From contig NZ_CP045096.1 in NCBI RefSeq assembly GCF_009184865.1, positions 8,122,001 through 8,186,000 of the forward strand: DNA of 64,000 nt. The letters run 5' to 3'. Of the stretch, positions 2,457 through 24,142 are shown piece after piece (positions within the stretch are counted from its first letter, which is position 1; the number at the start of each line of letters is the position of its first letter). The stretch comes from Streptomyces phaeolivaceus (GTDB lineage: Bacteria; Actinomycetota; Actinomycetes; Streptomycetales; Streptomycetaceae). The position numbers and the translations under genes are program-made. The notes beneath the pieces were generated by a model. It was given only the letters and a program-made list of their open reading frames with translations. It was not told the DNA's origin and searched no databases.

Positions 2457-2624
2457 TTCCCGTGTCGTGGACGAGCCGGCCCCGGCCCGGTGCCGGCCGT
2501 ACGGCGTCGTGGGGAGCCCCGTGGGCCCGAGCGCCGAGACGGATGTCACACCGGCTGCCTGTCACGTATCGCCGGGCGCCCCGGTCCGTATGGGGGAATC
2601 CGCCACCATGACACGGAGCTCACC

Positions 2625-5600
2625 GTGGAATCGCTTCGCCACCACTACGGCAACCCACTCGCGGGGCAGGGCGGCAGCACCGGCACGCGCGCGATGATCG
2701 GCCGGGACGAGGAACTGCGCACCCTCCGCCGGGTGTTGGCGGACGCGACGGCCGGGCACGGCGGCGCGCTGCTGGTCCACGGCACTGCGGGCGTCGGCAA
2801 GTCGGCCCTGCTGCGCACGATCGGCGCCGAAGCCGAAGGCAGCGGCTTCCGGGTGCTGAGCGCGTCCGGCGTGGAGTCCGAGCTGTGGCTGCCGTTCGCC
2901 GCACTCCAACTGCTGCTGCAACCGGCCGCCGACGGTATCGAGAACCTGCCGGACCCCCACCGGCTGACGCTGAGCGACGCGTTGAGCGCCACGGAGACCG
3001 AGCCCCAGCTGTTCCGGGTCGGCATGGCCGTACTCGAACTGCTCGCCGACGCGGCCGACCGGCAGCCGCTTCTGCTGCTCGTCGACGATGTGCAGTGGGC
3101 CGATTCCTCCAGCCGGGACGTGCTCAGGTTCGTCGCCCGGCGCCCCCGCGACCTTCCGATAGCGATCATCGTCGCCTCCCGGATCCACTACCCCGAGTCG
3201 AACAGCCTGAGCGCGTACCCGGACCTCCTTCTGGAACCGCTCGGCCGGACGGCCGCCGCCGAACTGCTCGACCTCGGCGCCCCCGGACTGCCGGCGCCGG
3301 TACGGGCACTCGTCCTGGAGCGCGCGGCGGGCAACCCCCTGGCCCTCGTCGAGCTGCCCAAGGCGGTGAAGGGCCTGCCCATGGAGCCGGACGATCTGCC
3401 GCTGCCGCAGCGGCTGGAGGAGGCGTTCGCCGCGCGCACCGACACGGTGAGCAGGCAGTGCCGTACGTTCCTCCTGGCTCTGGCCGCCGAGCCGAACGCC
3501 CCGCTGGACCGGCTGCTGAGGGCGTCGAGTCGCCTCTCCGGCTCGACGGCTTCCGTGGACACCTTGCAGGAGGCGGTCGACGCGGGCCTGGTGACCCTGA
3601 TCGGCCGAACCCTCGAATTCCGGCATCCGCTGATGCGCTCGGCGATCCACACCCGCGCCACCGTGGCCGATCGCCTGGGCGTGCACCGGGCCCTCGCGGA
3701 GGTGATGGACGACATGCCCGAGCGTCAGCTCGTTCATCCGGCCGCCGCCACGCTCGGCCCGGACGAGGAACTGGCCGCCCGGCTGGAGCGTTTCGCCGAT
3801 GTGTCGCAGGCCCGGGGCAAGGTGGCCGCCGCCGTCCCGGCCCTGCGCCGGGCGGCCGATCTCGTCCACGACACACAGCGCAGGACCGGCATCCTGATCC
3901 GGGCGGTGGAGCTGGCCAGCGAGATCAACGACCGCGTCCACACCCAGCTGCTGCTGGACCGCGCCGACCCGCGCGAGCTGGGCCCCCTGGAGCGGGCCCG
4001 CCTCATGGTCGTGTCCGACAAGGCCGCGTTCGACCCGGGCGAACCGCATCGACGTATCCGGGAGATGGTCACCACGGCGGCCGGGGCGTTCGACGCGGGA
4101 GGCGCGGACACCGCCGAGAGCCTGCTGTGGTGGGCGGCCGCACGATGCTTCTTCCAGGACGGCGACGCGACCGTGCGCGCCGAGACCGCGGCCGAACTGG
4201 CTCGTTGGAACCCCGATCCGGACGACCCGCATGTGCTGACGGTACGGGCGTACACCGAACCGTACCGACAGGGTGCCGAGGTGCTCGCCCGGCTCGACGC
4301 CATCGAACCGGACGCCAGGGACGGCCGGATCCTGCACTTCCTCGGCAGCGGCGCGATGGTCCTGGGCGACACCGGCCGCGCCGTCCGCCACCTGTCGGCG
4401 GCGGCCGGTGTGCGGCGGTCGCAGGGCAGGCTCGGACTGCTGGCACGCTCACTGGCCGGCAGCTGGCCACGGGCCTACCTCGGTCAGCTCGACCGGGCTC
4501 GCGAGGAGTCCGGCGAAGGGCTCGCCCTGGCCGAGGAGACCGGGGAACGGATCGTCTGGCTGGGCCTGAAGGCGACCGGGGGACTGGTGGCGGCGCTGCG
4601 CGGCGAGACCGAGGCCGCGGCGCGCACGATCCGCGAACTGCGCGCCCACCCGCTGTTCCCCGGCATGCCGTTCGCCACGGTGATGGCACAACAGGTCGAC
4701 GGCCTGCTCGCCCTCTTCGACGGCCGCACGACCGAGGCGTACGACCTTCTCGCGCGCGCGTTCGATCCGGCCGACCCGCACTACCACTCGGTGAGCCGCT
4801 GGCTGCTCGCACCGGACCTGGCGGACGCCGCGGTGGCCGCCGACGCCGTCCCGGAGGCCCGGGAGCTGTTCGCGGAACTTCCGGCACTGGCCCGCCGACT
4901 GCCCTCGGAGATGATGGTGGTCGCGCACGCCTACACCGACGCCGTACTGGCCCCGGACGACACGGCGGAGGAGCGCTACGCCGCCGCACTCGCCGCGCTG
5001 CCCGTCGGCTGGACGCTGTCGCGGGCCCGGCTGCGGCTGCACCACGGCCGCCGGCTGCGCCGTCGGCGCCGCAACGTGGACGCCCGGAACCCGTTGCGCG
5101 CGGCCCGCGACGCGTTCGACCAGATCGGCGCCCAGCCCTGGGCCGAGCCGGCCCGCGAACAACTGCGTGCCGCCGGTGGGTCGAGCCGGCGGCGGCACGC
5201 GAACACCGCCGAGCAGTTGTCGGCCCAGGAGATGCAGATAGCCGTACTGGCGTCACAGGGGCTGAGCAACCGGGAGATCGGCAGGCGCCTGTTCATCTCG
5301 CACCGCACCGTCGGAGCACACCTGTACCGGATCTATCCACGCCTGGGCATCACCAGCCGGGGCAAGCTCGCCGCCGGGCGCGGCGACCTCGCCCTGTCCG
5401 TGAACGGCCCCGATGAGGCGAGTGCACTTCATGCGTCCAGTTGCGAGAACCCTTTCAAGTCCATTTCGTGGTGGTCGGGTTGGGCCTTTTCCTGTACGGC
5501 TTCATTGAGGAGGACGGCGAGCCGGCGCGCAAGGAACACAACCTGGAATGGGTCTGCGGCCCCGACTCCGGCGGCTCGACGACCAAGCAGCGCTGCCAGA

Positions 5601-5639
5601 CCTGGGGCCCGGCCAACTACACTTGGTCCAACGGCGTAG
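2625..5639 (+). CDS. LuxR-family LAL regulator (large ATP-binding) with abnormal C-terminal tail
   Basis: A large ATP-binding LuxR-type regulator. The AAA/STAND domain shows Walker A GTAGVGKSALL (about base 2788) and Walker B LLLLVDDVQWAD (about base 3070). A long helical, TPR-like middle region follows, and a C-terminal LuxR helix-turn-helix (QGLSNREIGRRLFISHRTVG, about 5255-5315). I start it at the GTG at 2625, which has GGAG six bases upstream. ATG 2694 (MIGRDEELR) is the alternative. The family part ends near base 5375. After that the frame runs on for about 85 residues of Arg/Ser/Ala-rich sequence overlapping the remnant of another gene, while a TGA in another frame sits at 5414. The natural stop was probably lost by a small indel. 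Likely a cytoplasmic pathway regulator, target unknown. Confidence 0.85.
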   Translation: MESLRHHYGNPLAGQGGSTGTRAMIGRDEELRTLRRVLADATAGHGGALLVHGTAGVGKSALLRTIGAEAEGSGFRVLSASGVESELWLPFAALQLLLQPAADGIENLPDPHRLTLSDALSATETEPQLFRVGMAVLELLADAADRQPLLLLVDDVQWADSSSRDVLRFVARRPRDLPIAIIVASRIHYPESNSLSAYPDLLLEPLGRTAAAELLDLGAPGLPAPVRALVLERAAGNPLALVELPKAVKGLPMEPDDLPLPQRLEEAFAARTDTVSRQCRTFLLALAAEPNAPLDRLLRASSRLSGSTASVDTLQEAVDAGLVTLIGRTLEFRHPLMRSAIHTRATVADRLGVHRALAEVMDDMPERQLVHPAAATLGPDEELAARLERFADVSQARGKVAAAVPALRRAADLVHDTQRRTGILIRAVELASEINDRVHTQLLLDRADPRELGPLERARLMVVSDKAAFDPGEPHRRIREMVTTAAGAFDAGGADTAESLLWWAAARCFFQDGDATVRAETAAELARWNPDPDDPHVLTVRAYTEPYRQGAEVLARLDAIEPDARDGRILHFLGSGAMVLGDTGRAVRHLSAAAGVRRSQGRLGLLARSLAGSWPRAYLGQLDRAREESGEGLALAEETGERIVWLGLKATGGLVAALRGETEAAARTIRELRAHPLFPGMPFATVMAQQVDGLLALFDGRTTEAYDLLARAFDPADPHYHSVSRWLLAPDLADAAVAADAVPEARELFAELPALARRLPSEMMVVAHAYTDAVLAPDDTAEERYAAALAALPVGWTLSRARLRLHHGRRLRRRRRNVDARNPLRAARDAFDQIGAQPWAEPAREQLRAAGGSSRRRHANTAEQLSAQEMQIAVLASQGLSNREIGRRLFISHRTVGAHLYRIYPRLGITSRGKLAAGRGDLALSVNGPDEASALHASSCENPFKSISWWSGWAFSCTASLRRTASRRARNTTWNGSAAPTPAARRPSSAARPGARPTTLGPTA

Positions 5640-6811: not shown

Positions 6812-8205
6812 TAGTACTGCAACCGCATCTGGCGTGACGGATGGTCGGCGGTCTCGTTGGTATGACTGTGTGCTGATGCGCTGACGGTTGAGCAGGTCGA
6901 GTCGTGGTCCGAGGGGGTGGCCGGGCTCCATGCCCGGTTCGCCCACCGTTTCGGCAGGTCGGAGCCCCGCGAGCGGGCGCTGGACTACCTGAACGGACTC
7001 GTCGCGCCGCTGGAGAAGAAGAACGGGTGGACGCTGTCCGAGCAGGTCGGGCAGCTCCGCCCGGACGGCGTCCAGCGCCTGCTCAACCACTCCGACTGGG
7101 ACGAGAACGCGGTCCGCGACGATGTGCGCGACTTCGTCGTGGAGACCATCGGAGCCAAGAACGCGGTCCTGATCTGCGACGACACCGGTTTCCTGAAGAA
7201 GGGCACCAAGTCCGCCGGAGTCCAGCGGCAGTACACAGGTACCGCCGGCCGCACGGAGAACTGCCAGATCGGGACCTTCCTGGCCTACGCCTCCGCCAGG
7301 GGGCGGGCATTGATCGACCGTGAGCTCTACATCCCCGTTTCCTGGACGGATGACCGTGAGCGCTGCCGCGCAGCCGGGATCGACGACGAGATCCCCTTCG
7401 CGACCAAGAATGAGCACTGCAAGTGGATGCTGCAACGTGCCGTCGACGCAGGCATCCCGTTCGCGTGGGTCACCGCTGACGAGGCATACGGGCAGGTCAA
7501 GCACCTGCGGGTATGGCTGGAGGAACGCAGGATCGCGCACGTACTGGCCACCAAGGTCAACGACACCGTGACCACGGCGGACGGCGGCGACGCCAGGGTG
7601 GACCAGTTGGTCGCCGCCCTGCCCAGGCAAGCGTGGAAGCGGGTTTCCGGGGGCCAGGGCGCGCACGGCGAACGGATCTACGACTGGGCCCGCGTCGCCA
7701 TCCGCCCGTACTGGGAGAACGGCTTCGGGCACTGGGTTCTGGCCCGCCGCAGCATCAGCGACCCCACCGAGATCGCCTACTACGTCTGCTACGGATCGGT
7801 GGCCTCCCGGCTGAAAGACCTGGTCAAGGTAGCCGCCGCGAGGTGGGCGGTGGAGGAGTGCTTCCAGACCGCCAAGGGCGAGTGCGGCCTGGACCACTAC
7901 CAGGTGAGGCTCTACCGGGCCTGGTACCGCCACATCACCCTGGCCATGGCCGCCCTCGCCTACCTGACCGCCGTCCGCGCCGCAGAAGCCGCAAAAGGGG
8001 CGGAGCGGACGACGAGCAAGACCTCATACCCCTCAGCGTCCCGGAGATCCGCCGACTGATCGGCCACATCATCGTCACGCCCCGCCACCACAGCAACGAC
8101 CATCATCTGCACTGGTCACGCTTCCGACGACGCAGCCAGGCCCGTGCCCGCCGCTCCCACTACAAACGCCGAGGCCACAACCCGCAGATGCGGTTGCAGT
8201 ACTAG
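6811..8205 (+). mobile_element. IS701-family-like insertion sequence with terminal inverted repeats
   Basis: Perfect inverted repeats bound the element: TAGTACTGCAACCGCATCTG at 6812-6831 and its exact complement at 8185-8204. The outermost four bases are TTAG on the left (6811-6814) and CTAG on the right (8202-8205). Both fit the YTAR target type known for IS701, though the two copies differ at one base. The body is about 1.39 kb and holds one transposase gene. The element splits a non-coding structured sequence. Confidence 0.85.
6917..8059 (+). CDS. IS701-family transposase (C-terminus continues in -1 frame)
   Basis: A DDE transposase of the IS701 type. The catalytic residues are visible: first Asp in LICDDTGFLKKG, second Asp in VTADEAYG, and Glu in EECFQTAKGECGLDHYQVR. 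The GTG at 6917 is the earliest standard start, but family-like sequence (EQVESWSEG) extends some residues upstream, so the true start may be a non-standard codon. This frame stops at 8059, whereas the expected C-terminal tail (LSVPEIRRLIGHIIV through HWSRFRRRSQARARRSHYKRR) lies in the -1 frame up to 8205. The run AAAAGGGG at 7993-8000 sits just where the frames should switch, so this is either a programmed -1 slip or an inactivating indel. Confidence 0.85.
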   Translation: MAGLHARFAHRFGRSEPRERALDYLNGLVAPLEKKNGWTLSEQVGQLRPDGVQRLLNHSDWDENAVRDDVRDFVVETIGAKNAVLICDDTGFLKKGTKSAGVQRQYTGTAGRTENCQIGTFLAYASARGRALIDRELYIPVSWTDDRERCRAAGIDDEIPFATKNEHCKWMLQRAVDAGIPFAWVTADEAYGQVKHLRVWLEERRIAHVLATKVNDTVTTADGGDARVDQLVAALPRQAWKRVSGGQGAHGERIYDWARVAIRPYWENGFGHWVLARRSISDPTEIAYYVCYGSVASRLKDLVKVAAARWAVEECFQTAKGECGLDHYQVRLYRAWYRHITLAMAALAYLTAVRAAEAAKGAERTTSKTSYPSASRRSAD

Positions 8206-9293: not shown

Positions 9294-11618
9294 ATGGGTG
9301 GGGACCCGTATGTATCAGCAACGGTTGACGAATGTGGGGGGCCGGAGGCGTCATCGATGCCTGGCGACAGAGCGCAGGTGCCTGATCCCTACGGTGACCG
9401 GGCCCTGCTGACCTCTGCCATGACGAACGGCTACGACGCCGTACCCGACGAAGAACGGGATCGGTTACAGCGCTATCTCGAAGCGGTTGTCGCGGCCCGC
9501 CCGGCGCCCGTGCACACCACCGTCGCCTTCAACGCGGTGTACTTCGGGTACAACCTCGGCGGCGACGGCTACGGCGGCAGCCCACTCCGCCTCGACGACT
9601 TCCCTGTGATCACCTTCGGCGAGTGCGTCCCTGTGCTCCCCGTCGGTGCAATGGTGTGTGTCGCCACCGGGTCGGACCCGTTGTACGCCGAGATCGTCTA
9701 CCGGGAGGGTGCCCACCCAGAGGTGGGTGCCCTTGGTGACATACCAGCCTGGGTGTCGGGGGCGCCCGCAGGCGCCGACGGCCCGGGGCGGCCGGGAGAC
9801 GTCGCCGCGCCACGGCGAAGAGAGCTCCTGGTCCCGGATCTCCATGCCTTCGGCCCGGCTCTGAGCCTGTCATCGGCTCAGCTCCACCGCTTACGCACGC
9901 GCCGACGCTGGATCAACGAGGACGGACATGTCGTCGTCGACGTCCGTTATCCGTCTCCGGAGGCGGCCCGGCGCGACGACCTGACGGCCTATGCGGACCA
10001 TCTCCTGACGACGGCACGGGAGCAGTTGCTCAGCCCCTTCGTCCCCGTGTCCCTCGCCGCACTGGTGGGCGGCACGCACGACGACGACCTGCGGGCAGGG
10101 TTGCTCGGTCTCCTCGACACGGTGCGGGGTGTGCTCAACTCCAGTGCCGCCTTGCGTACATGGGGTGACTACGCCATGACCCGGACCTCCCTCGCAGACT
10201 GCTGGCGGGACACCGGACCGCTGGGTGGCGATGACCTCAGGTCGCTCGCCGCGGCGGTCGAACGCGCGGCCACCCCGGGGAGACGGCGCTACGGTCTCAC
10301 CATGCCGGTCACCGTGTACACGGCGGTCGGACCGCGGCTTCGCGGGTTCCCGGGCGCGGCGGAACTGCTCAGGGGAGTGGGGTACGCCGCAGCGGTGTGC
10401 CGGGCGAACGTGGCGCTCACCGACGTCGTCCAAGGGGACAGTGACCACGGCCTGTTCGAGAACGGCTCCCGGATCACGCTCGACGACGCCTTCGAGGGTG
10501 GAGGCGTGTGGCGGTCCCATCATCCCGGTGACGCAGAAGCGCCCGGAGATCCCCTGGCCCCGGCCGGACGCGGCTGGACGTCCACGTTGCCGGCACCAGC
10601 GGAGCCGGAGTCGGCAACAGAGTTGGACCCGGTCGATCTGGCCCTGGCCGACGACGCCTCTCTCGGCACCGGCGAACTCCTGCGGAGCGATGCGCAGGAG
10701 ATCGTTTGGCGGGCACCCCTGAGGCTGGCCCAGCTCATCGACGGCTGGTTCCCTCTGCACCCGTACATCGTCGAGGAACTCCGCAGGTCTCACGGTGCGT
10801 GCCCAACGGTTCGGCTCGAACTCGACCACGCCGGCGAGTTATTGGACGAGAAGGAAGCGGTGCAGGACGTCGTCACCGCCGAACTCGGGCACGACTCTGG
10901 CCGGTTGACCGGGATCGCCTGGCCCCGCGACTTCTTCCCCGGCCTCATGCTTGAGCTGCGCTGCCTCCGCGGCGGTTCGGTGATTCGCCTGGCCACGACG
11001 CGGCTCAAGGAACGGGTGCAGGTCGGCGACCGTGAGACCGGGCACTGTTACGACCCTCGTGTGCTTACCAGGGAGGACGCCCCGGGAAGTGACCGCCACG
11101 GTGACAGCGCGGTCGGGCTCGGTCCCCGGCAGCTGGTGCTACGCACCGTGCGCCGTTGCGGTCTGCTCACCCTCGACGGCCATGCCCTGATGGACCGTTC
11201 AGTCCTGCCGAGCGCGGTCTACGGGCGTCGACCGACCCGGTCACAGGTCACCGCCCTGGAATTGGCCGTCGCGGAACTACTCGCGGAACGGCTCCTGGAA
11301 CCCGCCCTCGGCAGCCGAGACGCCTGGGACCAGCCGCATTTCCCGCCGCACGACGGAGAGCGGACCATTCCTCTCATCGGCTACCGCCCCGCCCGGCCGC
11401 GGGTGATACGTCCTTGGGGCGGCATCGAACCGGGTAGTGATGGGCTGCAAGCCGTCCAGTTCGTCCCCGGTCATCTGCGCCGCCTGCGGCCGGGTTGCTC
11501 GCCCAGCGACGTTCAGCGCGTGGCCTTTCGGGAGTACTGCCGCAGGCTCGGCAAGGCGGACGGCTGGGAACTGCCCTACGGATACACGTTCGTCACCGAG
11601 CACACGCGCGGTCGCTGA
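9294..11618 (+). CDS. Large protein of unknown family, first gene of a two-gene system
   Basis: A 774-residue soluble protein that I do not recognise. The start ATG at 9294 follows GGAGG by four bases; the open frame extends upstream but that part reads as non-coding. No signal peptide or membrane helix is seen. Notable stretches are an N-terminal FNAVYFGYNLGG segment, a Gly/Asp/Ala-rich linker around residues 400-450, and a C-terminal half with aromatic-rich beta-like strands (LQAVQFVPGHLRRLRPG, ELPYGYTFV). Two TTA codons occur in frame (9465 and 10839), so expression should need bldA tRNA. The gene for a giant ATPase starts 83 bases after the stop on the same strand, implying joint action. 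Base usage is visibly less GC-biased than the core genes to the right, in keeping with transfer. Function unknown. Confidence 0.8.
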   Translation: MGGDPYVSATVDECGGPEASSMPGDRAQVPDPYGDRALLTSAMTNGYDAVPDEERDRLQRYLEAVVAARPAPVHTTVAFNAVYFGYNLGGDGYGGSPLRLDDFPVITFGECVPVLPVGAMVCVATGSDPLYAEIVYREGAHPEVGALGDIPAWVSGAPAGADGPGRPGDVAAPRRRELLVPDLHAFGPALSLSSAQLHRLRTRRRWINEDGHVVVDVRYPSPEAARRDDLTAYADHLLTTAREQLLSPFVPVSLAALVGGTHDDDLRAGLLGLLDTVRGVLNSSAALRTWGDYAMTRTSLADCWRDTGPLGGDDLRSLAAAVERAATPGRRRYGLTMPVTVYTAVGPRLRGFPGAAELLRGVGYAAAVCRANVALTDVVQGDSDHGLFENGSRITLDDAFEGGGVWRSHHPGDAEAPGDPLAPAGRGWTSTLPAPAEPESATELDPVDLALADDASLGTGELLRSDAQEIVWRAPLRLAQLIDGWFPLHPYIVEELRRSHGACPTVRLELDHAGELLDEKEAVQDVVTAELGHDSGRLTGIAWPRDFFPGLMLELRCLRGGSVIRLATTRLKERVQVGDRETGHCYDPRVLTREDAPGSDRHGDSAVGLGPRQLVLRTVRRCGLLTLDGHALMDRSVLPSAVYGRRPTRSQVTALELAVAELLAERLLEPALGSRDAWDQPHFPPHDGERTIPLIGYRPARPRVIRPWGGIEPGSDGLQAVQFVPGHLRRLRPGCSPSDVQRVAFREYCRRLGKADGWELPYGYTFVTEHTRGR

Positions 11619-11701
11619 TCCGTCACGGCACTTTCGTGTTCATGGGTCCGGCGCCAGCCCCTCCCTTCTTCTTGGTGCCCACAGAAACGGAGTACGCGTA
11701 C

Positions 11702-14700
11702 ATGCAGGACCGCTACCGCGTCGTCACGGGGCCGCCGTGGTCCCCGTCAAGCGTCTCGGCCCAGGACCTCGAAAGCCTGGCCGCCGCGCTCAACGCTTTG
11801 GAGCACCCGGCCGTCGCCGCCCTGAACGACCTAACGGTCGACATGGTGGAACTGGCCTTCAACTCCCTGCGGCCAAAGGACCGGCAGGAGCTGCTCGGTA
11901 GCCTGGGCATCCGTATGGCGGCCCCTCGACGGGTGAGCAGTGCCCTGTGCCGGGATGTTCTCGCGAGGTTGCGGCGTGAGGCGCTGCAGCACACCTGCAC
12001 ATGCGGGATGAAGAGACTTACGGTCAGCGTGATGAACCAGGTCGAGAGGCACGTCTTTACGCAGGACGGCGAGACGGTTCCCGACCCCGTTACTCGGTGG
12101 GGCGCGACGCTCGTCCGGGCCACGGTGTTCGCGTGGTGCAATGCCTCCGTCACCGACGCCCACATCCTTGCCTGGGCGGCGGACCAAGACTGGTTCGTAG
12201 CGACGGCCGACGACATGGAGACGGCTCAGCTCGCCGCTGTCGGTGCCGCGGCGTGCTCCATCGTGGAGGCGAACCCGGACTTCGCCCCCGGAGCGGTGGA
12301 AGACGACAAGTCGCCGCTCGCGGGCGACGGAAAGCCTGTGCGTGCTGCCGTCGCCGACCGGCCGGGCACGAATACCCCCGCCCCCGAGACCGTGGTACCC
12401 GACCCCGACACCTCCTACGAGATGACCGCTACGGCTTCCGACAGTGCCCGAACCGACAAGGGGACGGATCCGGAGGCGACCTGCCGACAGCTGGAGTCGG
12501 CCCTCGCGCAAGCCCGGCAAGCCGCGGAGAAGGTGACCAGCGCGGTCGCGGAGGGCTGCCCTCCGCAGGACGAGGACCTGGCTCCGCTGGCCGCGCTGGG
12601 TGCCGTCTTCGACAGCGTCGACGCGGTGCTCCGCGCCGCGGGGATCGAGGGGGTGCCCAGCCGCCTTGAGGACTTGACGCGCGCCGCACGCGCGCACCGT
12701 GCGGCGCAAGAACGTGAGCACCAGGCACGGGAGTCGCTGCGGGAGCTGCTGGATGTCGCCTCCCGTCCAAACAGCTCCGCCACTGCCGGCATCGCCGTCG
12801 AGGCCGTGCGCGGCGTGGCCCGCCGCCTGCTGGACACACCGGTGTGGGAGGAGCAGCAACGAGAGGAGAGCGCCGCGCTGGCCGCCTTGGCCCGGCTCAT
12901 CAGGCTGGGGCGGCAGGCGGATGCCGCGGCGGAGATCCTGGCTCTGCAGGAGCAAGTCGTGCGGGTACTGCCCACGTGTGCCATGGCCGTGGTCATGGCC
13001 CCTGAACTGACGTTGGCCCAGCCGGAGGACGCTGGCCGCGAACCCGCTGGGGCCGAGGCGGACGGCATCGCCGAGCCTGCCGCTGCCGAGACGACCGTGG
13101 AGTACGGGGTCTTACAACCAGCCGACCGGACAGAGGAGGCCGCGCCTCACCCTGCCTCCGAACCGGAAGTCGCCGAGCCCGCGCTGACGACGGTCCCCGA
13201 GCCGGTCCGCGCCACCGACGCACAGGCCGCGGCCCCTGCCGACAGCGCCCCGGCACCCCGCACGGGCCCGGACGTGCCTGTCCAGGTGCCCGCCGCACCC
13301 ACGATCCGTCCCACCGAGGACGCACCCGTCCGAGAATCAGTCCCGTCGGCAGGTAACGACATCGACGAGGCCGCAGCCGAGCGGGCCTTGGCACAGTTGG
13401 TCGTTGACCGGCGCTTCGGACTTGCCCACCATCTGGCGAGGGCTGCAGGCCACTCCGAGCCCCAGGTGTCGGCGTTCCGCCTGGCAGGTGCTGCCGCGCT
13501 GCTCACCTCCGGTGACAGCCAGGGCGCCCGCCTGACGGCGGACCTGCTCCGGGAGTACGGCGGATACGTGGGCCGGGACACCGAGGTCAGCGAACTCCTG
13601 CTGCTACCTGCCTTGTTGCGTACTGCACTGATCACGGGCGACCACTCCGCAGGCGCTCAGCTCAAGGCGCTGGTGCCCCGGCTCCCGGACCGGCTCGGGG
13701 AGGCGGCGACCAACGTCGCCGACCGTGCTCTCAGCGGTGCCCTGATGATCGCTTCCCCGCTGGTTGCCGACGCCTCCGAAAGCGAGATCCGGTTGCGGGA
13801 GTTGCGCGAGCAGAGCCGTGCTCTGCTCGCGCCGCAGAGGCTGCGGTTCGCGCGGGCGACGGAGATCGCCAAGCGCTGGCTGACCCCCGACGACGGGATG
13901 CTCGGATCGCTGCTCATGACCGTCGTCGGCGACAACCGCGACGCGATGCAGCAGGTGCGCGAGCAGGCCGAGCGGCTGTCGAAACTGGCCGAGGTCAACA
14001 GCGAGATCGACCGCATGGACCGCAAGCATCGCTCGTCCAGCGGCAAGCCGCTGCAAGGCTCCGGGCGGCAGGATCTGGTGCATCTCGTGGAGCGAGCCGT
14101 CGGCCTCGTCAAGGAGTGGTGCCTGGCGGTCGACGGCACCCGCCGCGGGGACCGTTCCGACGGCAACCGTGCGGCCAAGGAGATCTCCTCCCTGCGCCAG
14201 TCTCTGCTGGACGGCAGGGAGGCCGCGCTGGGCGATCTGGAGCAGCTGGCCCAGCGCTCGGACGCCGTCTCGTCCGCGATGGCCTGGGCGGCACGCGCTT
14301 CGATGGAGGGCCTGTTCGCTCTGCTGGCCGGTGACACCGTGACCACGCGTCCCGGCGGTCCGGTCGACCCGGAACTCGTGCTGAACGCGGAACTGCTGAA
14401 GGTGTGCGACGCCCCTGACGAGCGGCCGTCGCTCGACGAGCTTCTCATCGCGGTCGACCGGAGCTGGCGGGACGCCTTCGACGAGCGGCTCTCCCACGAT
14501 GCCTTCACCGCGGCCCGTACCATCGTCGAACTGGCCGGACGAGGGCTGCTTCCCGCCCGAACTGGGGAGTTCGTCCCGCCCACGGACACTGAGATCGACG
14601 AACGGGAGGCCGTTCGGCGCAAGCAGCTGCGCAAGGCACACGGCGAACTCGTCGCCGAGCTGCACCGTGCGCAGGCGGATGGTGCAGTGACCGAGGACCA

Positions 14701-17700
14701 GGACCTGGGTCTTCAGGAGCTGCTGGCCGACGCCCATGACCGCCTCGAAGGCCCCGACCGGCACGACTTGCTGAATGTGCGTCGGGCGCTCGACACGGTA
14801 CGGAGTGACCTGCCCGCATTCCGGCAGCAGGCGGCCGACCGCATCCGCGCCCGGCTCGACGCCCTGGACCCCACGGCGGAGGAGCGGACCCAGGTCCTGC
14901 GGCGCCTGGAGACGAACGACCTGGCCACCGCCGCCGACCTCGTCTACTTCCTGGAGATCGGCGAGCCCGTCCCGGAGATCGAAGGAGGCGAGTCCCACCT
15001 GCCCGACTTCTTCCCAGCCGTGCCCGACGGCCTGCCGGGAGGCATCGGCCACGACCTCGTCGACCTGGTCCGGTCCGGCGGCAAGCATCCGATGCTTCCC
15101 GTCCTGGACTACGGGGGCCTCTCCACCGACGAGGCGGCACTCGCGGCCGACGCCCTCGACGAGTGGCGCGCGCTGGCTGCCACCGAGCGGAAGGACCGGC
15201 TCCAAGTGGCTCCGACGAGACAGGTGCCTCCGCTCCTCAAGCTCCTCGGCTATGACGCCAAAAGCGCCAGGCCGCTCGACGACCGGTCCCAGCACCGGCG
15301 GGAATACCGTCTCTTCGAAGCAACCGGGGTGGAGATCAACGGCAGGGCGAAGGCGCCCGCGTTTGGCTCGCAGATCAGGGAGCAGGGCGGTAACCTGCGG
15401 GTGATGATGGTCTGGGGCAGACCGCCCGCCAAGGTCGTCATGAGCTGGGCAGAGCGCGACACCAGCGATGCGAGCCTCCTCGTCGTCTACTTCGGCACGC
15501 TGAGCCGTGAGGCCCGTGTCGAACTCGCCGTCGGCTCCGGCCGGTTGCAGCCGCTGCTGGTCGTGGACGACGCCGCCCTCGCCTATCTCGCTGCCTGCGG
15601 CAATCGCCAGGTCAGCACCGCCACGCAGACACTGCTGCCCTTCTCCGGCGTCAACCCGTACATCAGGGAGAAGCGCGGCCGGATCGGCGGCGAGATGTTC
15701 TACGGCCGTGACGCCGAGCGCAAGAGCATTCTCGACCCGCGCGGCACCCAGGTCATCTATGGTGGCAGGGGACTCGGCAAGTCGGCATTGCTCGCCGACG
15801 CCGGGGAACGTTTCACGGAGCAACGCCCTGGCTACCACCAGGTGGTGTACGTCAACCTCGACCAGGAAAACATCGGCAAGGGCAGCTCGTTCGGGCCGGA
15901 GACGTTGTGGAGCGTCCTGGAGCGGGAGCTGACGGAGGCGCAGGTACTCGACGACCGGCCGCAGGGACGCAGGAAACGGCAGGAGATCTCCGAGCGGGTG
16001 CGTGTCGGCATCCGGACCTGGCTGGACGGGGACTCACGCCGCCGTCTTCTGATCCTGCTCGACGAGTGCGACCAGTTCTTCGAGGCGGACGCCCCGCGCT
16101 TCGACCAGACCAAGAAGCTCAAGGGTCTCGGGTCCGACACCAAGGACCGTGCCAAGGTCGTCTTCGCCGGACTGCACTCCGTGCAGCGTTTCTCCAAGCT
16201 CGCGAGCAACGGACCGTTCGGCCACCTCGCGCAGACCCCGAAGGTGATCGGTCCGCTGGCTCCCCAGTCCGCGGCCGAGCTGTTGGTCGAGCCGATGAGG
16301 GCGCTTGGGTTCGAGTTCAAGGACCTGGATCTCGTCAACCGGGTGCTGGGCTACTGCTCCTACCAGCCCTTCCTGCTCCAAATGTTCGGGCACCGGCTGG
16401 TCGAGCTGATGCACCGCAAGCGGGCGCGGCGTGGAGCCGAGGGACCCCCTTATGAGGTGGAGGTGACCGACATCGAGGTCGTGGAGACGGACGCCGCGCT
16501 CAGAGATGGCATCTCGGCGGCCTTCAAGGACACGCTGAGCCTCGACCACCGATACGACGTGATTGCCAACGTGCTGGCGTACCACGCCCGCCATCGCGGC
16601 CTGGAGGTGCGGCTGAGCGACACCGAGCTGCGCGAGGAGTGCGAGACGTACTGGCGCAAGGGGTTCGCGCAGCTCGACACCGAGGGTTTCCGCGCCTACC
16701 TCTCCGAGATGGTCGGCCTCGGTATCCTCGCGCCCAACCACGACGGCCTGGGCTGGCATCTGCGCGGCCCCAACGCCCTGCGCATGATTGGTACCTCCCA
16801 CGAGGTGGAGGCCCGCCTGCTCAGGGCCGAGCAGGACTGTGAACTCCAGGAGAGCATCGTGCAGGAGGGCCGCCCCGAGCTGCCCGACGGCCAGCCGGCT
16901 CCGCTGACCAACACCCAGCTCGACGACCTTCTGGGCGAGCGGTCCAGCCGAACCAGGATCGTCCTTGGTACATCCGCCACCGGAGTTACCGACGTCGCCC
17001 GGACCTTGCGTACTATCGCCGGACCGATCGACGGCTGGACGCTGCCGCCCGTCGGTAAGCCCAGCGTTTACAAGCAGGAGCTCATCGGCGGACGCCCTCG
17101 TGAACGACGTGTCGTCATCAGTGACTTCGTCAACTACCGGGACCCGGTGCGGCCTGAGACCTGCCGGGAGGCCGTCGACCTGGCCGAGACGCTGCTGCCC
17201 ACCACTCCGGGGGTCACCCGCGCGGTGGTCCTCGTCACCGACACCACTCAGCTGGCCCTGTGGCGCACCCTGCTGACGGGATTCGAACCCACCTCGGCCG
17301 CCCCGGTGGTGCTGCGCCGCCATGACCGTCGCAGCCTGCGCAACTGGGCTCAGCGTGTCAACATGTTCCACACGGAGGACCGCTTGGACCGTCTCCACGA
17401 GCTGACCGGTGGCTGGCCGCTCCTGGTCGGCCGAGCACATCGCCTGCACGGCGAACTGGACGACCCCGACAAGGTGTTGCGCCACCTGGCAGGCCTCCGC
17501 GCGGACCGAGCCGAGGCCGGCGTCTTCGCCGAGGCGACCGGAGTGTACGCGGACTCGCTGCTTGCCGCTGGCTACCGGGCCCTCGACGACGAGTTCAAGG
17601 ATGGTCCGTTCGACATGGAGGGCGCGGTGACCGCTGTTGCGCTCAAGATCGAGGACGAGGAGGAGGCGCGGTGGATCGTCAACTGCCTCGACTGTCTTCA

Positions 17701-17773
17701 GGTATTCGATCGCGAGGACATCCAATTGCGCTTGGAACCGCTGTTGCGCCAGTGCGTGGCGCTCCGCGTGTGA
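11702..17773 (+). CDS. Giant STAND/AAA-like ATPase of unknown system (about 2,020 residues)
   Basis: A very large soluble protein. I prefer ATG 11702, which follows AAACGGAG with a 9-base gap; ATG 11642 in the same frame has no ribosome-binding site. Order of parts: helical N-terminus with a CTCG motif; coiled-coil-like region (about residues 260-360); Ala/Pro/Glu-rich linker (about 443-553); long helical-repeat region; then a P-loop ATPase with Walker A GGRGLGKSALL (near base 15761) and Walker B LLILLDECDQFFE (near base 16046). A winged-helix-like segment follows (about 16550-16790), then a second, degenerate ATPase-like module (GTSATGVTDVARTL, later ELTGGWPLLVGRAHRL) at the C-terminus. One TTA codon lies at 13112. 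The architecture suggests a signal-sensing NTPase switch, as in many defence systems, but no nuclease, TIR or protease effector is recognisable. It is paired with the upstream 774-residue protein. Confidence 0.8.
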   Translation: MQDRYRVVTGPPWSPSSVSAQDLESLAAALNALEHPAVAALNDLTVDMVELAFNSLRPKDRQELLGSLGIRMAAPRRVSSALCRDVLARLRREALQHTCTCGMKRLTVSVMNQVERHVFTQDGETVPDPVTRWGATLVRATVFAWCNASVTDAHILAWAADQDWFVATADDMETAQLAAVGAAACSIVEANPDFAPGAVEDDKSPLAGDGKPVRAAVADRPGTNTPAPETVVPDPDTSYEMTATASDSARTDKGTDPEATCRQLESALAQARQAAEKVTSAVAEGCPPQDEDLAPLAALGAVFDSVDAVLRAAGIEGVPSRLEDLTRAARAHRAAQEREHQARESLRELLDVASRPNSSATAGIAVEAVRGVARRLLDTPVWEEQQREESAALAALARLIRLGRQADAAAEILALQEQVVRVLPTCAMAVVMAPELTLAQPEDAGREPAGAEADGIAEPAAAETTVEYGVLQPADRTEEAAPHPASEPEVAEPALTTVPEPVRATDAQAAAPADSAPAPRTGPDVPVQVPAAPTIRPTEDAPVRESVPSAGNDIDEAAAERALAQLVVDRRFGLAHHLARAAGHSEPQVSAFRLAGAAALLTSGDSQGARLTADLLREYGGYVGRDTEVSELLLLPALLRTALITGDHSAGAQLKALVPRLPDRLGEAATNVADRALSGALMIASPLVADASESEIRLRELREQSRALLAPQRLRFARATEIAKRWLTPDDGMLGSLLMTVVGDNRDAMQQVREQAERLSKLAEVNSEIDRMDRKHRSSSGKPLQGSGRQDLVHLVERAVGLVKEWCLAVDGTRRGDRSDGNRAAKEISSLRQSLLDGREAALGDLEQLAQRSDAVSSAMAWAARASMEGLFALLAGDTVTTRPGGPVDPELVLNAELLKVCDAPDERPSLDELLIAVDRSWRDAFDERLSHDAFTAARTIVELAGRGLLPARTGEFVPPTDTEIDEREAVRRKQLRKAHGELVAELHRAQADGAVTEDQDLGLQELLADAHDRLEGPDRHDLLNVRRALDTVRSDLPAFRQQAADRIRARLDALDPTAEERTQVLRRLETNDLATAADLVYFLEIGEPVPEIEGGESHLPDFFPAVPDGLPGGIGHDLVDLVRSGGKHPMLPVLDYGGLSTDEAALAADALDEWRALAATERKDRLQVAPTRQVPPLLKLLGYDAKSARPLDDRSQHRREYRLFEATGVEINGRAKAPAFGSQIREQGGNLRVMMVWGRPPAKVVMSWAERDTSDASLLVVYFGTLSREARVELAVGSGRLQPLLVVDDAALAYLAACGNRQVSTATQTLLPFSGVNPYIREKRGRIGGEMFYGRDAERKSILDPRGTQVIYGGRGLGKSALLADAGERFTEQRPGYHQVVYVNLDQENIGKGSSFGPETLWSVLERELTEAQVLDDRPQGRRKRQEISERVRVGIRTWLDGDSRRRLLILLDECDQFFEADAPRFDQTKKLKGLGSDTKDRAKVVFAGLHSVQRFSKLASNGPFGHLAQTPKVIGPLAPQSAAELLVEPMRALGFEFKDLDLVNRVLGYCSYQPFLLQMFGHRLVELMHRKRARRGAEGPPYEVEVTDIEVVETDAALRDGISAAFKDTLSLDHRYDVIANVLAYHARHRGLEVRLSDTELREECETYWRKGFAQLDTEGFRAYLSEMVGLGILAPNHDGLGWHLRGPNALRMIGTSHEVEARLLRAEQDCELQESIVQEGRPELPDGQPAPLTNTQLDDLLGERSSRTRIVLGTSATGVTDVARTLRTIAGPIDGWTLPPVGKPSVYKQELIGGRPRERRVVISDFVNYRDPVRPETCREAVDLAETLLPTTPGVTRAVVLVTDTTQLALWRTLLTGFEPTSAAPVVLRRHDRRSLRNWAQRVNMFHTEDRLDRLHELTGGWPLLVGRAHRLHGELDDPDKVLRHLAGLRADRAEAGVFAEATGVYADSLLAAGYRALDDEFKDGPFDMEGAVTAVALKIEDEEEARWIVNCLDCLQVFDREDIQLRLEPLLRQCVALRV

Positions 17774-17790: not shown

Positions 17791-17818
17791 CCGGCCGCCC
17801 GCATGTCCGGGCGGCCGG
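17791..17818 (+). terminator. Hairpin terminator after the giant ATPase gene
   Basis: Arms CCGGCCGCCCG and CGGGCGGCCGG close on a 6-base loop, 17 bases after the stop. It ends the two-gene transcript. The remaining sequence to 18095 shows no gene. Confidence 0.75.
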
Positions 17819-18095: not shown

Positions 18096-18773
18096 TCAGC
18101 CGATGTCCGGATCACCGGCCTCTTCGAGGAGCCGGATGGCGAGGTCATCGGCCCATTTCACGGCCCAGGCGCGGAGAGCGGTGATCGTGGCGTCCTCGAG
18201 CCCATAGGCCGCGAAGGCTTCGTCGTCGGTCCACTCGGCGCCCGTGAGGTTTGACTGCAGATCCTCGCGCTCGAAGCGGCCACGGGCATGGCGGCGGCCG
18301 AACTCCTCAAGCTCGGCATTGGTCCAGCGGCGGGATGCTGCGAACACGTCGATGAGGTCGCGTGGTGCTCCACGGTCGGCCAGGGCACGGACCTTGGTCC
18401 CAATCACGTCCTCTTCCGCGAGGACCGGCCCGTACGGGCTCTGGGTGACAGGCCGCCAGAAGATCTCCTTGAGGATGTCGACTTCGCAGTCCTGCCCTGT
18501 GGCTGGGTCAGTCACGGTGAAGCGGGCGGACAGCGGGGCGGTCTCCAGCGCGTGCACCTCCCAGCCGCGGGCCTCCAGGCCGACGCGGAGCGTGGCGGCG
18601 ATGTCGGCCATGGGCGCCGGGTTCTCGGTGGCGACATCGAGATCCTGGCTGGGGCGGTTCACGAGGCGGTGCGCCCGCACGGCATACCCGCCGGTGAGAA
18701 CCAAGGGATACGGGGAGCCGAGCGCGAGCACATCCGCCAGGAGCCGCGTGTGCAGATCCGGCATGTCCGTCAC
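18096..18773 (-). CDS. AbiEii/AbiGii-type nucleotidyltransferase toxin
   Basis: A 225-residue protein of the AbiEii/AbiGii toxin family (DUF1814-type nucleotidyltransferase fold). Visible motifs: LVLTGGYAVRAHR and NRPSQDLDVA (the S-x-D-x-D metal site), then the KVRALADRGAPRDLIDVF segment typical of the family. Known for the family: type IV toxin-antitoxin and abortive phage defence, where the enzyme adds nucleotides to tRNA 3' ends. The GTG start at 18773 overlaps the stop of the upstream gene by four bases (GTGA), so the two are translationally coupled. Starting at ATG 18764 is possible. It stands convergent to the ATPase system, with which it shares the putative island. Confidence 0.8.
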   Translation of the reverse strand: MTDMPDLHTRLLADVLALGSPYPLVLTGGYAVRAHRLVNRPSQDLDVATENPAPMADIAATLRVGLEARGWEVHALETAPLSARFTVTDPATGQDCEVDILKEIFWRPVTQSPYGPVLAEEDVIGTKVRALADRGAPRDLIDVFAASRRWTNAELEEFGRRHARGRFEREDLQSNLTGAEWTDDEAFAAYGLEDATITALRAWAVKWADDLAIRLLEEAGDPDIG

Positions 18774-19162
18774 GCGGCTGCCCGGTTGCGGGAGGCGAGC
18801 TGGGGGAAGGCGTCTTCCCATACGGAGCGCACGGTGCGACCGACGAGCGTGCGCAGCACTGGCCACAGCTGGAGGAGCAGATCCCGGTTGAGATAGTGGG
18901 GCAGGTCATCACGCAGGCCCTCGTGCAGGACGGTGCGGTACAGGCCCATGCGCTGGCGCGGCTTGCTCATGTCGTACGAGGTCATTCCCGACCAAGCCAT
19001 GTGTAGCGGCAGCTCCACGATCCCCTGGGTCGGGCCGTGCAACTCGTCCAGCGACTCCGGCAGACGCCGCCGGAACTTCTCCCGGTACAGCGCCAGGTCC
19101 TCGGCGACCGCGCCCGAGACGTCGCTCGGCGTGGGTGCGGGATGCTGTGTGCTGGAGGGCAT
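18770..19162 (-). CDS. Small partner of the AbiEii-like toxin (putative antitoxin)
   Basis: A 130-residue protein directly upstream of, and overlapping by 4 nt, the nucleotidyltransferase gene. It is mostly helical, with a conserved-looking core (ELPLHMAWSGMTSYDMSKPRQRMGLYRTVLHEG) and no HTH of the AbiEi type that I can see. Position and coupling make it the natural antitoxin or partner, but that is inference; canonical AbiEi antitoxins are longer and have a winged helix. The Shine-Dalgarno GGAG is only two bases from the ATG. Confidence 0.7.
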   Translation of the reverse strand: MPSSTQHPAPTPSDVSGAVAEDLALYREKFRRRLPESLDELHGPTQGIVELPLHMAWSGMTSYDMSKPRQRMGLYRTVLHEGLRDDLPHYLNRDLLLQLWPVLRTLVGRTVRSVWEDAFPQLASRNRAAA

Positions 19163-19485: not shown

Positions 19486-21015
19486 TCAGATGTCCCGGAA
19501 GATCTCGATCTGCGCCCCCACCGTGTTGAGGCGTTCCGCGAGGTCCTCGTAACCGCGGTTGATGACATAGACGTTGCGCAGGACGGACGTGCCGTCGGCG
19601 GCCATCATCGCCAGGAGGACGACTACGGCGGGGCGCAGGGCGGGTGGGCACATCATCTCGGCGGCGCGCCAGCGGGTCGGGCCCTCGACCAGGACCCGGT
19701 GGGGGTCGAGGAGCTGGAGACGGCCGCCGAGGCGGTTGAGGTCGGTGAGGTAGATCGCGCGGTTGTCGTAGACCCAGTCGTGGATGAGGGTCTGGCCCTG
19801 CGCGGCGGCGGCGATGGCCGCGAAGAACGGGACGTTGTCGATGTTCAGGCCGGGGAACGGCATCGGGTGGATCTTGTCGATCGGGGCCTGGAGCTTGGAG
19901 GGGCGGACGGTGAGGTCCACCAGGCGGGTACGGCCGTTGTCGGCGAAGTACTCCGCCGAGCGGTCGTGGTCGAGGCCCATCTCCTCCAGGACCGCCAGTT
20001 CGATCTCCAGGAACTCGATCGGCACCCGGCGCACGGTCAGTTCGGACTCGGTGACGACCGCGGCGGCGAGCAGGCTCATCGCCTCGACCGGGTCCTCGGA
20101 GGGCGAGTAGTCGACGTCGACATCGAGGCGGGGCACCCCGTGCACGGTGAGCGTGGTGGTGCCGATGCCCTCCACCCGTACGCCGAGCGCCTCCAGGAAG
20201 AAGCAGAGGTCCTGGACCATGTAGTTGGACGAGGCGTTGCGGATGACGGTCACACCGTCGTGGCGGGCGGCGGCCAGCAGCGCGTTCTCGGTCACCGTGT
20301 CGCCGCGCTCGGTCAGCACGATCGGGCGGCCGGGGGTCACGGACCGGTCCACCTCGGCGTGGTACAGCCCCTCGGTGGCCGTGATGTCGAGGCCGAACCG
20401 GCGCAGCGCGATCATGTGCGGCTCGATCGTCCGCGTCCCGAGGTCGCAACCGCCCGCGTACGGCAGCTTGAAGTGGTCCATGCGGTGCAGCAGCGGGCCG
20501 AGGAACATGATGATCGAGCGGGTGCGGCGGGCCGCCTCCGCGTCGATCGCGTCGAGGTCCAGTTGGGCAGGCGGCACGATCTCCAGGTCGACCCCGCCGT
20601 TGATCCAGCGGGTGCGTACGCCGATGGAGCCGAGCACCTCCAGAAGGCGGTACACCTCCTCGATGCGGGCCACCCGGCGCAGCACTGTGCGCCCCTTGTT
20701 CAGCAAGGTGGCGCACAGCAGCGCGACACACGCGTTCTTGCTGGTCTTCACATCGATCGCACCGGACAGCCGGCGTCCGCCGACCACCCGCAGATGCATC
20801 GGACCCGCGTAGCCGAGCGAGACGATCTCACTGTCCAGGGCTTCACCGATTCGAGCGATCATCTCAAGGCTGATGTTTTGATTACCGCGCTCGATACGAT
20901 TCACCGCGCTCTGACTCGTGCCAAGCGCCTCCGCCAACTGTGATTGTGTCCAGCCACGGTGCTGCCTTGCGTCACGGATGAGCTTGCCGATGCGTTCGAG
21001 GTAGTCGTCTGCCAT
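19486..21015 (-). CDS. murA2: XRE HTH - MurA-like (EPT fold) fusion protein
   Basis: A 509-residue fusion. Residues 1-70 form an XRE/Cro helix-turn-helix (WTQSQLAEALGTSQSAVNRIERG). The rest is a UDP-N-acetylglucosamine enolpyruvyltransferase fold. Many MurA landmarks are kept: KTSKNA (the Lys-Asn pair), AGGCDLGTRT (the Cys that attacks PEP) and VINRGYEDL (the C-terminal Arg). The usual A-T-D-L-R-A loop is instead A-A-E-M-M-C-P-P, so substrate handling may differ. From memory it matches the second murA (SCO5998) of S. coelicolor, beside aconitase. It could be a wall-precursor enzyme that also regulates transcription, or a regulator using the EPT fold as a sensor. A palindrome just upstream of its ATG is a likely own operator. 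Confidence 0.85.
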   Translation of the reverse strand: MADDYLERIGKLIRDARQHRGWTQSQLAEALGTSQSAVNRIERGNQNISLEMIARIGEALDSEIVSLGYAGPMHLRVVGGRRLSGAIDVKTSKNACVALLCATLLNKGRTVLRRVARIEEVYRLLEVLGSIGVRTRWINGGVDLEIVPPAQLDLDAIDAEAARRTRSIIMFLGPLLHRMDHFKLPYAGGCDLGTRTIEPHMIALRRFGLDITATEGLYHAEVDRSVTPGRPIVLTERGDTVTENALLAAARHDGVTVIRNASSNYMVQDLCFFLEALGVRVEGIGTTTLTVHGVPRLDVDVDYSPSEDPVEAMSLLAAAVVTESELTVRRVPIEFLEIELAVLEEMGLDHDRSAEYFADNGRTRLVDLTVRPSKLQAPIDKIHPMPFPGLNIDNVPFFAAIAAAAQGQTLIHDWVYDNRAIYLTDLNRLGGRLQLLDPHRVLVEGPTRWRAAEMMCPPALRPAVVVLLAMMAADGTSVLRNVYVINRGYEDLAERLNTVGAQIEIFRDI

Positions 21016-23485: not shown

Positions 23486-24142
23486 TCACGGTGTTCGGTT
23501 GAGCCTGGACTGGGCGGCTTCGTCTCCAGGGTGAGCTCCCTCGTCCTGTTGCTGCTTGAGGTGGTAGCGGATGGATGCGTAGGAGACCGAGTAGTCGTGG
23601 TCGTCCATGAGCTTGGTCCAGATGCCCCTGACGTTGAGGTTGTCGGTGATCATGCTGTCGATCAGGCCGATGAGCCTGCCTCTGAGCGGGTCCCTTCCCC
23701 GGGAAACTTCCCTCTCGGCTGGGCGTGAGGTGTCCAGCGCGAGACGGACTGTCCGTGGCGGGATCTTGTATTGCTCGGCCAGTGAGCGGACCGTCATGCC
23801 CCTGCGGGCATCGTTGGCGATGAGGACTGGCAGGTCGAGGCGGTCACGGAAGGGGTGTCTGCTGGGGTAGCGAGGGTTCGGCTTGGAGCGTCCGCGTGGT
23901 GAGCTGGCATCCGCAAGTGCCCGCTCCAGAGCTGCGGGAGATCGGCCGGAGACAATGGCGAGGCTTTCGAGACGGGGTTTTCCGAACCACCGAGGCGGAC
24001 CGCAGAGGAAGCAGTGCAGGTAGCTGGGCTTGAGGTGGTTCGCGCGGGCAAGCCGGCGGATGTAGGAGTCGGTTGACTCTCCGAGTCGTGGCGCGACCTG
24101 GATGGGGAGCCGGGCCAGACTCCGGGGGAACGTTGTGGTCAC
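23486..24142 (-). CDS. tniQ: TniQ-family target-selection protein (Tn7-like)
   Basis: A 218-residue protein, last gene of the transposition operon. The N-terminus has the TniQ signature (RLPIQVAPRLGESTDSYIRRLARANHL) followed by a CxxC (CFLCG), half of the usual zinc site. Instead of the second zinc half, the C-terminal 120 residues contain two HTH-like stretches (MTVRSLAEQYKIPPRTVRLAL and NVRGIWTKLMDDHDYSVSYA). TniQ/TnsD proteins bind target DNA or a targeting complex and recruit the TnsC ATPase; here the extra DNA-binding part suggests direct sequence recognition. The GTG start at 24142 overlaps the tnsC stop (GTGA). Confidence 0.8.
   Translation of the reverse strand: MTTTFPRSLARLPIQVAPRLGESTDSYIRRLARANHLKPSYLHCFLCGPPRWFGKPRLESLAIVSGRSPAALERALADASSPRGRSKPNPRYPSRHPFRDRLDLPVLIANDARRGMTVRSLAEQYKIPPRTVRLALDTSRPAEREVSRGRDPLRGRLIGLIDSMITDNLNVRGIWTKLMDDHDYSVSYASIRYHLKQQQDEGAHPGDEAAQSRLNRTP

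Follow-up and report, generated by a model that had tools for sequence, protein, structure and literature searches.

The main finding of this work is a pair of large adjacent genes, here called p1 and p2, in a stretch of 64,000 nucleotides from Streptomyces phaeolivaceus (the window; C2:8122001-8186000 of a 10.2 Mb genome whose closest matches are Streptomyces). We hold with moderate confidence that these genes supply the recognition-and-switch half of a system, so far uncharacterised, for defence against phages or plasmids, with p1 as predicted reader of DNA and p2 as predicted ATP-driven switch. Gene order, motifs, folds (at the confidence stated for each) and selection were observed, and the defence purpose is what we infer from them. 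A role in phage defence or conflict had been put forward in an original prediction on this DNA; the adjacency of the genes, their patchy occurrence (p1 in 13 of the 101 genomes drawn from the genus, the window's genome among them; one of the 13, G026, matches only in the C-terminal part) and the defence-model matches of neighbouring genes speak for it, although the activity itself is our deduction. The features of the pair, in window coordinates, are as follows.

9294 to 11618, + strand: p1, the 774-residue partner (open frame, homologues, p2 adjacency, AlphaFold model)
9381 to 10613, + strand: p1 N-terminal half, residues 30-440, no recognised fold (fold comparison, conservation)
10665 to 11057, + strand: p1 residues 458-588, B3-like (DNA-reading) domain, a lead from fold comparison
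11112 to 11399, + strand: p1 residues 607-702, winged-helix-like domain
11702 to 17773, + strand: p2, giant nSTAND1-type ATPase, 2,023 amino acids; alternative ATG at 11642
11702 to 15031, + strand: long N-terminal region of p2, weak conservation, no convincing domain match
15296 to 15643, + strand: conserved domain ahead of the ATPase, at about positions 1219-1334 of the p2 alignment, within matches to distant relatives
15653 to 16795, + strand: STAND/ORC-type ATPase core plus winged helix
15761 to 15793, + strand: Walker A, GGRGLGKSALL, invariant in 45 sequences
16046 to 16072, + strand: Walker B, LLILLDECD, D and E invariant in 45 sequences
16910 to 17770, + strand: p2 C-terminal module, possible degenerate ATPase, alternating strands and helices (model)
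17791 to 17818, + strand: perfect 11-bp G+C stem-loop, likely terminator, beginning 18 bases past the p2 stop

As had been predicted, both frames are open on one strand in an operon-like arrangement. p1 starts at an ATG with GGAGG immediately upstream, and 11702-17773 is the likely p2 gene, since the methionine at 11702 is the first clearly conserved residue in alignments (n = 45, window included) and the public copy is 2,023 residues long. The numbering of the p2 alignment begins at the alternative, in-frame ATG at 11642 and is 20 residues longer; the spacing between the genes is 83 bases, or 23 with that start. Of the shared terminator claimed earlier, the G+C stem past p2 is present but a T run is absent, which is why the terminator scan did not list it. 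Searches at E ≤ 0.001 returned 370 proteins homologous to p1 (7,990 candidates scored) and 490 homologous to the C-terminal part of p2 (7,993 scored), mostly named 'hypothetical' among the matches listed. At the level of the phylum, p1 matches were present in 4 of 396 genomes, own genome included, one being C-terminal only and one a remnant (two candidates scored per genome). Scanning 84,980 species, each represented by one genome, turned up 86 relatives, from which 80 loci were kept, all actinobacterial. In 76 of these 80 loci the gene directly after p1, on the same strand, is p2 (tblastn; a few partial before a contig end), and in the four exceptions (L084, L097, L121 and L124) the contig ends in or just past p1. 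The objection that the homologues might rarely be adjacent fails because of this count; the pair is real and old. No match to p1 occurred in phage records, and 45 pattern stretches from viral contigs included no relative. One further locus (L162, G463:C2:358000-377900) holds a decayed copy, with p1 residues 1-271 and pieces of the p2 C-terminus at one place.

The assignment of p2 as a STAND-like ATPase was borne out, as Pfam nSTAND1 (PF20703) exceeds its curated cut-off on the C-terminal 924 residues of the window protein (32.7 vs 27.1 bits) and matches 30 of 45 p2 members at E ≤ 0.01. When the full-length frame was scanned (Pfam, PADLOC, NCBIfam), nSTAND1 was not listed at E ≤ 1, and only sub-threshold AAA matches and PDC-S01 (E 0.029) were obtained. 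The P-loop is indeed intact, with the invariance of both Walker motifs given above, and the winged-helix-like segment proposed behind the ATPase is supported by the structural model, which covers p2 from about residue 1,100 onwards and aligns with Aeropyrum ORC2 (1w5t) over model residues 213-615. ORC/Cdc6 and TnsC are among the top Foldseek matches of this model, in which the last ~290 residues have an alternating order of strands and helices. The profile of the N-terminal half gave a single match against PDB sequences, Afp11 (E 0.0068).

For p1, searches of Pfam, PADLOC and NCBIfam gave nothing convincing (best RskA_N, E 0.03; PADLOC none), its profile had no match among PDB sequences at E ≤ 1, and Foldseek found none among PDB and viral models at E ≤ 0.001. 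The lack of a match to any nameable system had been anticipated, and PADLOC agrees, with PDC-S01 (E 0.029) as its best result for p2 and none for p1. In the AlphaFold model (pLDDT 87), the C-terminal half resembles a DNA reader made up of a B3-like and a winged-helix domain, the candidate B3-like region giving a fold match to the LlaJI.R1 structure 6c5d. The suggestion that an effector may be concealed in the 774-residue protein found no support: neither an effector nor a catalytic motif was recognised in the N-terminal half, and the C-terminal half resembles a DNA reader. Residues H74, N80, E133, D182, N372, D377, D397, D398, W406 and R407 of the N-terminal half are shared by 90% or more of 53 sequences and also by the three most distant ones. 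Proteins carrying the p1 C-terminal module only were seen at L027, flanked by UvrD-like and DUF262-like genes (by eye), at L151, with a DUF262 gene ~4.6 kb away, and at L161, near a gene with a PDC-S14 match.

The description of the locus as a two-gene system fits the window, where p1-p2 stand alone, but in 36 of 80 relatives a third gene, a frame of ~2,000 residues, directly precedes p1. In three copies scanned with Pfam, DEAD, Helicase_C_2 and Helicase_C were found, with RNase_T in one. Among 31 complete copies (5 of the 36 were excluded, their frames being split or cut), at least 95% keep what we take to be the DEDDh residues, the Walker A and DEAH box of a DinG-type helicase, and the Walker A, DEAH box and motif VI of a RecQ-type one; a cluster of cysteines at the C-terminus is conserved as well. 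The RecQ part matches RecQ, BLM and WRN chains. At E ≤ 0.001 there are 427 similar proteins, at least two of those listed being named from Chloroflexota/Dehalococcoidia. Because this giant exonuclease-helicase gene precedes p1 in 36 of 80 loci, the effector of the three-gene form is probably outside p1.

For 44 of 80 loci no enzyme gene was found next to p1; L077, among them, has just 168 upstream bases, too few to judge. In the helicase-less loci, tblastn at E ≤ 1 detected no recognisable remnant beside p1; one 40-residue match lies elsewhere in L072. The window has no meaningful match to the DEDDh-DinG-RecQ gene and hence not the three-gene form, the own genome holds no full-length copy (two matches only, both to the RecQ part), and plasmids gave no match at E ≤ 1e-60. 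In a quick tree built on the C-terminal part of p2, with 45 rows (the window plus 44 of the 76 p2-bearing loci), helicase presence requires two changes, and 11 of 11 rows outside Streptomycetaceae have the gene. The simplest reading of this tree would be that the gene was lost twice, but the root of the trait may lie either way: two very distant plasmid p1-p2 pairs (p1 identity 28%) are without the gene, while in a genome of another class it stands next to p1 (with p2 unseen in the remaining 2.1 kb before the contig end). No residue signature of the loss was found in p2, and two positions were found in p1. The helicase-less pair is under purifying selection and is not decaying as a group, with dN/dS values of 0.17-0.21 for p1 and 0.24-0.30 for p2 in three closer comparisons, and of 0.26 and 0.28, respectively, in the most distant of the four. 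Split frames occur in p2 (L051, L060, L112) and in both p1 and p2 (L096 and the plasmid copy L152), and likewise in the helicase-bearing set, in p2 (L087, L095, L119) or in the helicase (L090, L113, L126).

The neighbours of the pair are also informative. All 14 flanking genes picked by eye match a PADLOC model when scanned singly: pPIWI-RE (four), DUF262-like HEC-05 and PDC-M55C, PD-Lambda-1, JetC, JetD, GajB, DrmB, BrxHI and a type I methyltransferase, with LmuB weak. Single relatives adjoin genes matching Wadjet, Gabija, DISARM, BREX, restriction-modification and pPIWI models. In a comparison at E ≤ 1e-10, a random sample of 120 of 247 flanking genes and 120 of 219 genes from 20 random regions were scanned with PADLOC, giving 119 and 89 families, respectively; it is qualitative and yields no clean statistic, because it is based on the best 25 families of each set. 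The flank families listed include JetA, type IIG, DrmB/DrmC, GajB and pPIWI, the control families listed are mostly RecQ-like and kinase-like, and PD-T4-6 and mad6 were matched in both. The settings differ between loci, yet up to 10 of 80 have the same neighbour gene.

Homologues of p2 extend well beyond this group, being present on 26 plasmid records from several phyla. The pPIWI-RE domain (PF13032) was sought in 12 of 13 plasmid records inspected, that is, all except L152, and was found in 4 of the 12. In the Bradyrhizobium and Microvirga plasmids it and the p2 homologue share a single open frame; in Azospirillum the match continues across the single TAA that separates an 846-residue gene from the p2 homologue in the same frame; and in S. 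xanthophaeus it is located ~3.5 kb ahead of p1 on the strand of p1, in a different frame from the annotated gene that it overlaps. Related proteins of ~1,130 residues are encoded upstream in the three alphaproteobacterial cases, the one in Azospirillum having Walker A and B motifs by eye. Among the actinobacterial loci, a pPIWI-RE gene ends 12 bases ahead of the helicase ATG on the same strand in L118, L110 is similar, and in L087 and L128 pPIWI-RE is convergent with p2. Counted by genome, pPIWI-RE shows no enrichment alongside p1 (4 of 13 vs 31 of 101), and the window locus has no pPIWI-RE gene, the sole PF13032 match of its genome being far off. We tentatively propose an undescribed family of giant STAND ATPases that extends across phyla and has p2 as its actinobacterial branch, a chassis for exchangeable recognition and execution modules: pPIWI-RE in one branch, and in another the B3/winged-helix reader plus a single-chain exonuclease with two helicase motors of opposite expected polarity, the window being a stripped form that works without either executor.

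The match in the window's genome is a divergent one (G000:C2:3359336-3359989, E 1.3e-24) in a 902-residue frame, and G013 and G079 have frames of similar length and match range. In L164, L165, L167, L168 and L181, p2 homologues are followed by related genes of 380-560 residues (22-36% mutual identity), annotated as AAA family ATPase in L164, L168 and L181.

The main alternative, unlikely in our judgement, is that the locus serves accessory DNA repair or self-protection, with p1-p2 recognising damaged DNA (for instance, soil-antibiotic cross-links) and the DEDDh-DinG-RecQ enzyme processing it. SaDinG, the nearest studied exonuclease-helicase, is reported to be adapted for the repair of cross-links, and MrfAB pairs a DEDDh nuclease with a helicase (both in the cited passages of PMC12345164); the RecQ, BLM and WRN matches and the ORC/Cdc6-like ATPase core point the same way. 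However, the patchy presence, the plasmid copies, the defence-model neighbours and the frame shared by p2 homologues and pPIWI-RE fit conflict better, and the pair persists in the 44 loci where no enzyme was found beside p1, the unjudgeable one included. Lower still we place abortive infection, in which p2 would be a STAND sensor oligomerising on a phage trigger and the N-terminal half of p1 a predicted cell-stopping enzyme: no catalytic motif was recognised, and p1 resembles a DNA reader in its C-terminal half. A locus for regulation or maintenance of a mobile element, p2 being an ORC/TnsC-like loader for replication or transposition, is quite improbable: ORC/Cdc6 and TnsC are among the top Foldseek matches, copies occur on plasmids and transposase genes lie within the window, but the recurrent partner is an exonuclease-helicase gene, the neighbours tested match defence models, and neighbours differ at most loci, though up to 10 of 80 have one common site.

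Returning to defence, p1 would bind invader DNA through its B3-like plus winged-helix half, and p2 would assemble or change state with ATP after p1 engagement. In the three-gene form the giant enzyme would then be loaded and unwind with both polarities, while its DEDDh domain degrades the DNA. The polarity expected of the RecQ part is general knowledge. That of the DinG part follows the cited passages of PMC12345164. In the two-gene version of the window the executor may have been lost or never acquired; without it, the pair itself would either block the invader, with the conserved residues in the N-terminal half of p1 as candidate site, or recruit a host nuclease.

In LlaJI and McrB restriction a DNA reader is coupled to an AAA+ ATPase. 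The likeness to p1 would be a B3-like DNA-reading domain (a fold match only, 6c5d), but in the window reader and ATPase are separate proteins, the ATPase is of STAND type, and no McrC-like nuclease was recognised. STAND-type systems have been placed in multicellular bacteria such as Streptomyces (PMC7159879, cited passages), and p2 passes the nSTAND1 cut-off; it differs in that its ATPase lies near the C-terminus after more than 1,200 residues, its partner is p1, and no effector domain was recognised in the window. For pPIWI-RE systems, a PIWI module with a DinG-type helicase was proposed as a restriction system, the triad being REase, DinG and pPIWI-RE (PMC3702460, Burroughs et al. 2013); here a pPIWI-RE gene is next to the operon in no fewer than 4 of 80 loci, and a pPIWI-RE domain is in one frame with the p2 homologue in two plasmids, whereas the cited passages on the triad mention neither a giant STAND ATPase nor p1. 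The DEDD-DinG of Staphylococcus aureus likewise fuses an exonuclease to a DinG-type helicase (PMC12345164, in part), but the relatives' gene adds a RecQ-type helicase in a single chain of ~2,000 residues beside p1-p2.

Shango, a three-gene anti-phage system of a TerB-like protein, an ATPase and a helicase (PMC10250203, passages), resembles the larger form in including an ATPase and a helicase, but its ATPase and helicase models have 439 and 720 positions. Membership was dropped, p1 and p2 matching no Shango model at E ≤ 1; the sole SngB match of the genome (C2:2542991) is a far better match to BrxD. The fold matches listed for p1 speak neither for nor against a TerB-like fold. DUF499-centred systems related to BREX are also tripartite, with an ATPase and a helicase, but there the third protein is an N6-methyltransferase (PMC12839542, passages). 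BREX/Pgl membership was dropped, neither p1 nor p2 matching a BREX model at E ≤ 1, and Dpd membership was considered and dropped. The own genome's BREX set (BrxC, PglZ, BrxD and BrxHI matches) lies at G000:C2:2540500-2552000 (L163), far from the window. Comparison by hhalign of the p2 C-terminal profile with the BrxD-like protein of that genome, and of the p1 profile with the PglZ-like protein, gave nothing, both comparisons being weak because one side is a single sequence. No description of the p1-p2(-helicase) gene set was found in the literature searched, most subscription papers and bioRxiv lying outside its scope, and the set is absent from the passages of PMC10250203, PMC12839542, PMC10482375, PMC12345164, PMC3702460 and PMC7159879.

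If the defence reading is correct, a recurrent, unlisted defence system would be added for Streptomyces, the many homologues of p1 and p2 listed as 'hypothetical' would be explained, and giant STAND ATPases would be linked to prokaryotic PIWI modules. The occurrence of one pair in two forms, one having and one lacking a 2,000-residue helicase-exonuclease, would also constitute a natural experiment, making the role of the enzyme directly testable.

Elsewhere in the window, the AbiE toxin pair reported next to p2 was found in part: AbiEii is encoded at 18096-18866 (Pfam, E 2.4e-14), but the small partner at 18770-19162 has no Pfam match at E ≤ 0.01. This AbiEii gene clusters with flanking genes of 5 of 80 loci (L049, L056, L092, L119 and L124), and beside it, at 19486-21015 on the minus strand, a single frame combines an EPSP-synthase-like domain with an N-terminal HTH_3. 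The insertion-sequence debris noted nearby corresponds to a DDE_5 transposase frame of 380 amino acids at 6917-8059. At 2490-5639 there is an AAA_16 protein of 1,049 residues with a LuxR-type C-terminal domain, and at 24139-27080 on the minus strand a TniB-like ATPase adjoins a Mu-type transposase C-terminal protein, a pair which we take to be a Tn7/Tn5053-like element.

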